NCBI GenBank assembly: GCA_964035545.1
Contig: OZ037767.1
Span: 19,601,628-19,665,627, forward strand
Source of the DNA: Bugula neritina
Taxonomy: Eukaryota > Bryozoa > Gymnolaemata > Cheilostomatida > Bugulidae
Reading direction: 5' to 3'
DNA length: 64,000 nt
Below the pieces are notes generated by a model, which was not told the origin of the DNA, did not search any database, and worked only from the letters and a program-made list of their open reading frames with translations. Numbering within the stretch: position 1 is the stretch's first letter; each line of letters begins with the position of its first letter. Position numbers and translations under genes: made by a program. This document shows, piece by piece, positions 60,901-63,900 of the stretch.

Positions 60901-63900
60901 AATAATTTGCGTCGAAATCTACTGCAACTATTCTCATAATTGCTACTGCAAATGTTTTTGAATGCAATTTTAATTTTTTGTGCTGTTCAATGCATTTAGA
61001 AGCTGAAGATTTCTGTATAATTTAATAGCTTCAGTATGTTGAAGGATTTACTCTGTATTATGCAGCTCTGGAGCGTGGGCCTGTTTTGATGAGTTTAATA
61101 GAATAGACATTGAAGTATTGTCTGTAGTGGCCCAACAAATAGCCACTATTCAACAAGGCCTTAAGCAACGGGTGAGAGTTTGTTGGGGTGATGTCCATAA
61201 GCCCACAAAGCTGTCTGCACAAAAATTAACCACTCACACTAGCTGCACGTCTTTCGTGTGTTTCCACCACTGCTACTCACTCACTGCATTGTTTCTTGTG
61301 ATATGATTTAACCTTTACCTTTGCTAACACCCTGTGTGCTTTTGCTAACAGTGCTGGAGCGTGGGCCTGTTTTGATGAGTTTAATCGAATTGATATAGAA
61401 GTGCTGTCTGTTGTGGCACAGCAAATTTCCACCATACAACTAGCTTTGAGGAAGAAGGTAAGACGGAGTAGTTTGTAAATATGGGTGTGTTTTGTTGTGG
61501 TGGACATAATTAAAGTATGTTGAGGTCTGTTTTGCGAAAGTTGGTATGCCAGATTAAGGTAACTGCATTGCATTCATGTAGGTGTACTCTAGTGAAATAG
61601 ACTTGACTAGTGAAAATGTGTGTGATATAAAAGATATGTCAGATATTAGTTTCGAGTTTGTGGCATGCTAAGCAAGTGTGACACTAAACTCTGAAGTCTG
61701 GTTGCCTACTGCTGTAATATAGTTGCTTAACTGTTTCTATATTTCTTGACCTGAATTTATATGCTTGTATTGCTTTGTTGCACAAAAACCAGATGCTTCA
61801 TTTTCGCTAAACCACAAATTTTGCTTTTCATTTCTGAACGTTTTTATTCAATACTGTTTCTAGTATCTGAACATTTAGCACGTTACATGCATTAAAAAAG
61901 CACCTACGGTGTGAGTGTTTTAATAATTGTCAGGTTGAAATTTAAATTTTGAATTTTGTAACAGGGTCATTTGTATAATGTTTAATATACTATTGGTTTG
62001 ATAGGTGGACAGATTCATGTTTGAAGGCGTCGAGCTTGACCTCCGCCAATCTTGTGCTGTATTTATTACAATGAACCCAGGCTATGCTGGGCGTACAGAG
62101 CTGCCTGATAATCTAAAGGCTCTCTTCAGACCAGTGAGTAGGAGTTGTTTTGTCATGTTTTCCGATTTGCACCTTGTGATGACCATCTCTAAATGAATTG
62201 TATTTAGAAAAAACTTGGTACAACTTTAAGCTGACAAAAGAAGTCGATTGACAAGGCTTTTCCCACAAAGATAATTTTCAAAACTTTCATCAATGATGGT
62301 CGCTTTTTTATAACAATAAAATTATATTTTCCGGCCAGTGATTAAATGAGAGCTATGTATAGCCTATATTCACGACAACCACCTCATATAAATTACAGGT
62401 GGCTATGATGGTGCCCGACTATGCTCTTATTGCTGAGATCTCGCTCTTCTCATTTGGTTTTTCTGATGCCAGAGTTCTGGCAAAGAAAATCACTTCTACC
62501 TTCTCTCTTAGCTCTGAGCAACTCTCATCACAAGATCATTATGACTTTGGTGAGTGACTGTAGATTGATAAGATCATTATGACTTTGGTGAGTGACTGTA
62601 GATTGGTAAGCTTATTAGTCGCCATTTCATGTGACAAAGATTAGTCATATCACTCATGAGACGTTTGCTCATTAAATGGCATCTGTTAGTTTAAAGTATA
62701 ATTATTTCTAAAATTAAAATACAGTTGAAATGAAAAACTATGAAATCCTTTATCTTCAGTGCATAGATTTCATGATACATTCTTGGTTTAGGGAAATTTT
62801 ATCATGTCCCTGTAGTTGTAATAATTGTAGTGTTTTTGTATGTGTAATAGTTGCAGTGTTTCTGTAATTGTTATAGTTATTGTGTTTCTGCAGGTAAGAC
62901 CTGTATTCTGTGTATTTTTCAGGTATGAGAGCAGTCAAGTCTGTGATATCAGCCGCAGGTAACCTGAAAAGACAGAACCCTACAATGAGTGAGGAGTTGA
63001 TTTGTCTGCGGGCTATCAGAGACGTCAATGTGCCCAAGTTCCTTATGGAAGATCTTAAGCTGTTTACTGGCATCGTCAGTGATCTCTTCCCTAATATCAA
63101 GGTGTGAAAAATCATAGAACTTAGGCCACAGTCTGAACTCTGACACCAATATAAAATAAGTAGCAAAATAACAATATAATTTAGTAGTTTCGTGTTTTAC
63201 ATTTTGATTGGCCAATAATATTTTAGGAAGAGCCAATTGACTATGGAGAACTAGAATCGGCGCTGAGAAAGCAATGCCTAAAACTACACTTGAAGGATGT
63301 AGACTTGTTCATACACAAGTGTATTCAGTTGTACGAGACAACGGTGGTACGACATGGCCTCATGTTGGTTGGCCCTACTGGTTCCGGTAAAACTAAGGTA
63401 ACTCGTCATGATAATTCATATTCAACTTTTGGGCAATTGTTGTTATACTTTTGTGTTTGAGTGTTGCTATCACTGCGTTTTCATTGCATTGAATGGATTC
63501 CTACAAATCACTTGACAATGGATTTGTGGTTGTGGTAGTATTCAATTGACACTATGCCCATGCATTGAATGATAAATTCATTGCATAATGTGAACTAAAT
63601 GCCAATAGCTAAAAAATTGTGCTTAGAAAGTGATTTTAACACAATTATTTTGATGACTTGCTTGTATAATGTGAAAAATGGAAGAAATTGTTAGATTGGT
63701 TTTCATTGAAAGTCGTGAACATGTAAAGGCATTTCAATTGACCCTTTTCTGTCAGGTTTTTAAAGTTTACTATTCCATAGCTTGTTATCTGGATAATTTA
63801 CACTAAAAAAAACCGAGTGTGTCTACTAAGGATAAGAAATATAGCATGCGTTTACTTCTTTATTTTTTATAACTCTGCTAGTTGTTAATTTTGATGCTGA

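Follow-up and report, generated by a model that had tools for sequence, protein, structure and literature searches.

A probable pair of mutually exclusive exons at the AAA1 Walker B site of a bryozoan DNAH1 axonemal dynein gene

In a gene for the axonemal dynein heavy chain DNAH1, the bryozoan Bugula neritina carries two adjacent 106-bp exons, here called A and B, each encoding its own version of a 36-residue segment that spans the Walker B motif of AAA1. They lie in a window of 64,000 nucleotides (contig OZ037767.1, positions 19,601,628 to 19,665,627 of the forward strand), whose own numbering is used throughout. From sequence and comparative data we consider it likely that A and B constitute a working mutually exclusive pair, and use of both is strongly suggested by purifying selection on each exon together with the presence of a diverged pair in a gene model of the annelid Paralvinella palmiformis. 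An earlier note on this DNA had proposed that the arrangement would let one gene make two motors, perhaps one for sperm and one for somatic cilia.

Exon A (61066-61171) and exon B (61352-61457), both on the forward strand like the constitutive exons and introns around them, each encode (S) plus 35 residues. They have in common the donor of an upstream constitutive exon (60264-60452) bearing the AAA1 P-loop (GPAGTGKTE), and are followed by a downstream constitutive exon of 43 residues (62005-62133). The intron preceding A measures 613 nt (60453-61065), the one separating A from B exactly 180 nt (61172-61351), and the one following B 547 nt (61458-62004). Both exons display AG/GT borders and equal phases, as the earlier note had described, and either one alone gives an in-frame join from 60452 through the exon to 62005. 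Conversely, when A is joined to B the frame runs into a stop inside B, confirming the predicted clash, and when both are skipped a stop is reached inside the exon at 62005-62133. The pair thus shows the hallmarks of mutually exclusive exons, namely adjacent homologous internal exons of equal length and the same frame, usable GT-AG sites on both (the acceptor of B being weak), and a frame broken by joint inclusion. A and B agree in 29 of 36 residues, with 7 of 36 codons replaced, and differ at 25 of 106 nucleotides; the 36-residue in-frame repeat, with 83% DNA identity over 95 nt, is beyond chance, and a tandem exon duplication is supported. Walker B (CFDEF) is the same in both versions and codons 3-26 encode identical residues, with most of the protein differences lying in the final ten positions.

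The identity of the gene as DNAH1, also claimed earlier, is supported by matches to solved structures, by exon mapping with a nemertean DNAH1 (P0169) and by a tree. According to tblastn with P0169, the gene part within the window extends over 38387-64000 of the forward strand, and exon matches run past the window to 90472 in window numbering (loci L037-L039). These matches, on which the gene model was built and one of which (71114-71671) still includes an intron, cover 3855 of the 4212 residues of the reference (residues 296-4212); the motor is complete from AAA1 to the C-terminus, with matches reaching residue 4212, and tblastn located no place at the gene for the first 295 residues of the tail. 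Only the Walker-B exon found a second whole place in this mapping. Further, a filtered self-comparison of the gene's stop-to-stop frames (dropping queries with more than 4 hits, hits more than 8 kb off and those with E >= 0.05) detected no whole exon doubled besides A and B, the other hits being short repeats and, at the end of one exon, a 38-bp duplication. A 122-residue AAA1 piece with exon B had Dynein axonemal heavy chain 1 as its top 3 of 84 matched solved-structure sequences, and the piece matches Pfam AAA_6 at about 1e-64 with either exon. Among 37 DNAH1 proteins, those of nemerteans and molluscs had the highest summed match scores, namely Lineus (6320), Lottia (6293), Patella (6256) and Tubulanus (6196). 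In a 31-row tree, the window row grouped with the DNAH1s of nemerteans, molluscs and the annelid Paralvinella, with two DNAH7-type outgroups standing apart, and came out as sister to Paralvinella with a Shimodaira-Hasegawa-like approximate likelihood ratio test (SH-aLRT) value of 98; this is a quick tree (LG+G4 with SH-aLRT as the only support measure; the window row was made with exon B by projection on the nemertean reference, and the columns of the exon were kept), and its deep branches are unreliable, as flatworms, rotifers and arthropods fell outside the other bilaterians, contrary to accepted animal relations.

The divergence between the two exons bears on their use. By the Nei-Gojobori method, A and B differ at a proportion of silent sites (pS) of 0.69, corresponding to a silent divergence (dS) of 1.86, with an overall replacement divergence (dN) of 0.11, which rises from 0.016 over codons 1-26 to 0.44 over codons 27-36. 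In codons 13-26 all 10 differences are silent, and 7.5 of the 8.5 replacement differences are clustered in codons 27-36. In neutral simulations the mean number of replaced codons was 15.8 starting from A and 15.7 starting from B, against the 7 observed, and none of 5000 runs from A, nor any of 5000 from B, came down to 7. The near saturation of silent sites, the low dN and the lack of replacements in codons 13-26 thus indicate that both copies have long been under selection at the protein level, and A and B appear to have been held to nearly the same protein throughout, the last ten residues excepted. The longest block identical between the exons comprises 32 nt, at 61068-61099 in A and, placed via the 286-nt offset, at 61354-61385 in B. 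None of the 9 comparable codons differs between A and B at codons 3-12, versus 13 of 18 at codons 13-36; when A and B were pooled against 15 other dynein hits of the genome, a few of which retain only part of the exon, 128 of 236 codons differed at codons 3-12. Later partial gene conversion is the likely and simplest reading of this block; a common constraint from splicing signals may also account for it. The flanking introns display no evident similarity, with gap-free identities of 24-40% over 30, 60 and 100 nt on either side.

These figures bear directly on the idea, which we regard as improbable, that only one exon is used, its duplicate being dead or dying. Such a fate would suit the acceptor of B, the weakest of all those compared (0 of 63 lower). 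Against it, frames, GT-AG sites and phases are intact despite near-saturated silent sites, codons 13-26 have accumulated silent changes without a single replacement, and gene conversion, which could slow decay, spans 32 nt only.

Comparative evidence was drawn from a database holding 5.8 billion proteins, in which each cluster at 90% identity is shown by one representative. The AAA1-region search gave 7838 matches among 7932 candidates scored, of which the best 120 were listed, and two further searches gave 50 proteins from 1312 candidates and 1090 from 1678 (best 120 listed); the resulting set of 258 proteins is mixed, since many from the 50-protein search are DNAH3/7-type rather than DNAH1. 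The Walker-B motif occurred twice in 5 of the 120 listed proteins. The doubled segments are identical in four of these five, from Exaiptasia (P0001), Acipenser (P0002), Cervus (P0003) and Paragonimus (P0109), with copies 335, 230 and 598 residues apart in three of them, and such doublings are probably errors of assembly or gene model. The P. palmiformis model (P0004) holds two differing copies of the exon segment, 59 residues apart; the 23 residues between them resemble the translation of a polypyrimidine tract, and an S stands before the second copy, just what would come from an intronic AG and one further base. This is the form to be expected from a gene caller forced in frame across two 106-bp exons. 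Furthermore, the model of the rotifer Adineta steineri (P0032) contains a partial second copy of 24 residues directly after the first.

A second form of the exon may be traced among molluscs and nemerteans. In the 257 motif-bearing proteins, taking the first motif of each and so leaving the second Paralvinella copy outside the count, the conserved Q follows a Q in 246 cases, an M in 7, an N in 1, an A in 1 and an S in 2; a Brachionus protein (P0013, with CLDEF) departs from the pattern. The M rows comprise the molluscs Argonauta, Haliotis, Mya, Ruditapes and Octopus, the nemertean Tubulanus, and P0037. The M form of Haliotis, AMQIMTITRAQLQK, has 19 of its last 24 residues in common with the second Paralvinella copy, and that of Ruditapes, AMQIMTITRAQKAK, has 18 of 24; the canonical form of Lineus, Lottia and Sus shares 15 of 24 with the same copy. 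Tubulanus and Mya have the M and are otherwise near canonical. The remaining gastropods and bivalves of the set belong to the Q rows, most of them with a sequence near AQQITTIQKAQQQR. Several M rows are named as isoforms (Haliotis X3, Mya X3, Ruditapes X2, Argonauta X5, Octopus X1), which would fit an old two-exon system with one form displayed per cluster representative; among these representatives, no mollusc gene displayed both. With respect to the first Paralvinella copy, A is the nearer (21 of 24 residues, against 19 for B), and with respect to the second B is the nearer (17 of 24, against 15 for A), as an ancient pair predicts. As a separate observation, Pomacea has two DNAH1-type protein clusters (P0031 and P0226), whose contigs have one and the same stated length (31531291), the more divergent of which, P0226, resembles Nucella P0239 in the Walker-B exon; some snails (Pomacea, Nucella) possibly possess a second DNAH1 gene.

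Given the same Walker B and differences mainly in the last ten residues, the two products probably differ in the tuning of AAA1, that is, in the speed of the site or its coupling to the ring, and not in whether the site works. The variable end aligns to residues 1651-1660 of chain 8j07_g6 (query with exon B), which we take to be the end of the helix after Walker B. In terms of AAA+ anatomy, this end comes after Walker B and runs on towards the pre-sensor-1 insert, and its earlier placement near the AAA1 H2 insert is probably wrong. It is quite improbable that the exons are mutually exclusive and their products functionally equivalent, the pair being kept by chance or for the needs of splicing: the identical Walker B and the identical residues of codons 3-26 would agree with such equivalence, as would the variation of the last ten residues between species, yet the clustering of the replacements at one end and the diverged pair in Paralvinella speak against it.

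As for how one exon would be chosen, splice sites were scored with a matrix built from 63 of the 66 inferred introns of the gene, leaving out the donors at 60452, 61114 (a false A-B join) and 61457. The acceptor of A lies above 37 of 63 other sites of the gene and its donor above 32 of 63; the donor of B lies above 51 of 63. The A-B intron, at 180 nt, is long enough for splicing, the shortest of the 63 other introns having 112 nt. No incompatibility between U2- and U12-type splicing was recognized, the donors concerned, read by eye, all beginning with GT and without a U12-like start.

Several observations weigh against a working pair. The shared donor at 60452 (CAG/gtacac) is weak and outscores only 1 of the 63 other donors, and the acceptor of B lies below all 63 other acceptors, so that B could be little used. 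Steric block, which would require the donor of the first exon to have a branch point within about 50 nt, gained no support from a branch-point motif scan, in which the branch-point-like motifs were found 24-40 nt before B and the nearest to the donor of A at 58 nt. Nor did the complementary intronic pairing elements that had been suggested emerge above shuffled controls: pairing of the three introns was equalled in 8, 37 and 57 of 60 shuffles. With neither steric block nor intron pairing found, exclusivity comes to rest on the frame and on unseen factors. On the comparative side, the diverged Paralvinella pair and the partial Adineta copy are known only from predicted proteins; B matches the first Paralvinella copy better than the second (19 versus 17 of 24) and lacks the M or N by which the second form is recognized in other species, so that separate duplications or conversion may have been at work.

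We nevertheless favor a working mutually exclusive pair, and a weak shared donor with unequal acceptors would suit regulated choice. Each productive transcript would take one exon; the two acceptors would compete for the weak shared donor, the outcome being steered by cell-type factors, and wrong combinations (both exons or neither) would be removed by nonsense-mediated decay. It is very improbable that the pair serves mainly as a dose switch, with inclusion of both or neither as a regulated outcome lowering DNAH1 through that decay. The early stops reached in both wrong outcomes and the weakness of the shared donor would be in keeping with such a switch, which would nonetheless have no need for a second copy to retain its protein sequence for so long.

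Lastly, the worry that the duplicate is an assembly artefact or uncollapsed allele, for which public models with doubled AAA1 offer a precedent (those of Exaiptasia, Acipenser, Cervus and Paragonimus, which make up 4 of the 5 with two motifs in the 120 listed), is hardly credible and was not borne out, being ruled out by near-saturated silent sites and unrelated flanking introns: the segments are identical in those four models, while A and B differ at 25 of 106 nucleotides and are each present once, with 180 bp between them, in a 32.4-Mb contig. This contig (C3) belongs to an assembly (G000) of 216 Mb in 295 contigs, throughout which exon A and exon B each occur once. The Walker-B exon is doubled at 1 of 18 dynein loci, the DNAH1 locus only; these loci lie on large contigs (C1, C3, C4, C5 and C7) and were counted from 42 places, the counts being lower bounds, with 4 further dynein loci on small contigs outside the count.

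The history of the pair would then involve an old duplication, probably shared with Paralvinella, followed by partial gene conversion in the window gene. As a broader and tentative proposal, which may well turn out otherwise, an alternative Walker-B exon of DNAH1 would predate the split of annelids and molluscs, perhaps going back to the spiralian ancestor. One form would be canonical (VVAQQ...) and the other would read VVAMQ or VIANQ..., yielding two inner-arm motors whose ATPase is tuned differently, for use in different cilia; the forms would be kept apart by frame breakage and blurred in the window animal by gene conversion.

Other features of the window and assembly were also recorded. 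Within the DNAH1 gene, the 38-bp tandem duplication (62532-62607, 97% identical) repeats an exon end with its donor at 62549, providing a second possible donor 38 bp beyond, out of frame. A tandem repeat array (48556-49390) occupies the intron behind the DNAH1 exon ending at 48580, and some of its units hold a piece like the exon end (INKYIK). In the intron before the P-loop exon, at about 60150-60225, there is a tRNA-like sequence with a box-B-like GGGTTTGAATCCC; ARAGORN found no tRNA in the window, and the sequence is perhaps a tRNA-derived short interspersed nuclear element. At 493-747 on the minus strand, an open frame (42 residues quoted) resembles an exon of a proteasome alpha subunit. 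Elsewhere in the assembly, the small contigs C176 (L007), C35 (L010), C149 (L016) and also C113 (L009) bear dynein AAA1 matches with in-frame TAA/TAG, L007 having several in-frame stops where other dyneins have Glu (GKT*, GRT*LPDNL). Peritrichs read TAA/TAG as Glu, and these contigs look like a ciliate epibiont or contaminant with that reading.

Axonemal dyneins diversified by gene duplication, with roughly one gene per arm position, and muscle myosin is a motor unrelated to dynein. Exchange of an exon within the catalytic AAA1 of DNAH1 would add a second route of diversification, comparable to the one in muscle myosin. The motor would then exist in two natural forms, seven residues apart, offering a clean test of the effect of the post-Walker-B segment on dynein speed or force. 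Should the pair have the age to which the traces in annelid, rotifer and molluscs point, ciliary motors specific to cell types may long have been made in this way, hidden by annotations that keep one isoform. The DNAH1 pair is unusual in combining the main motor site of an axonemal dynein with signs of age. A literature search covering few subscription journals found no case of mutually exclusive exons in DNAH1 or another axonemal dynein, the sole dynein case being the cytoplasmic dynein heavy chain 1 gene (DHC1) of Schistosoma mansoni; one further candidate (PMC11270918) was set aside as a chance co-occurrence of terms.

The DHC1 gene of S. mansoni resembles the window gene in being a dynein heavy chain gene with two homologous, mutually exclusive exons of identical length, and differs in encoding a cytoplasmic dynein (PMC3228551). 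Among human mutually exclusive exons, frame shift followed by decay is one of the mechanisms counted, and other regulation must act beside the frame; those exons were validated by splice-junction reads, whereas the DNAH1 pair is deduced from sequence (PMC5740500). In Ciona, sperm flagella and branchial cilia are reported to have different axonemal components, one animal bearing different axonemal protein isoforms in different cilia; unlike the DNAH1 case, the differences reside in tubulin and actin isoforms and structural components, and not in alternative exons of a dynein (PMC4427456). A parallel in design is found in metazoan muscle myosin heavy chains, molluscs and annelids included, whose clusters 2 and 3 of mutually exclusive exons lie at the P-loop, loop-1 and switch-1, so that, as in DNAH1, one motor gene carries alternative exons for the region of the nucleotide site; myosin has many clusters per gene where DNAH1 has one, and the differences discussed for it concern loop-1, whereas those of DNAH1 follow Walker B (PMC3912159).
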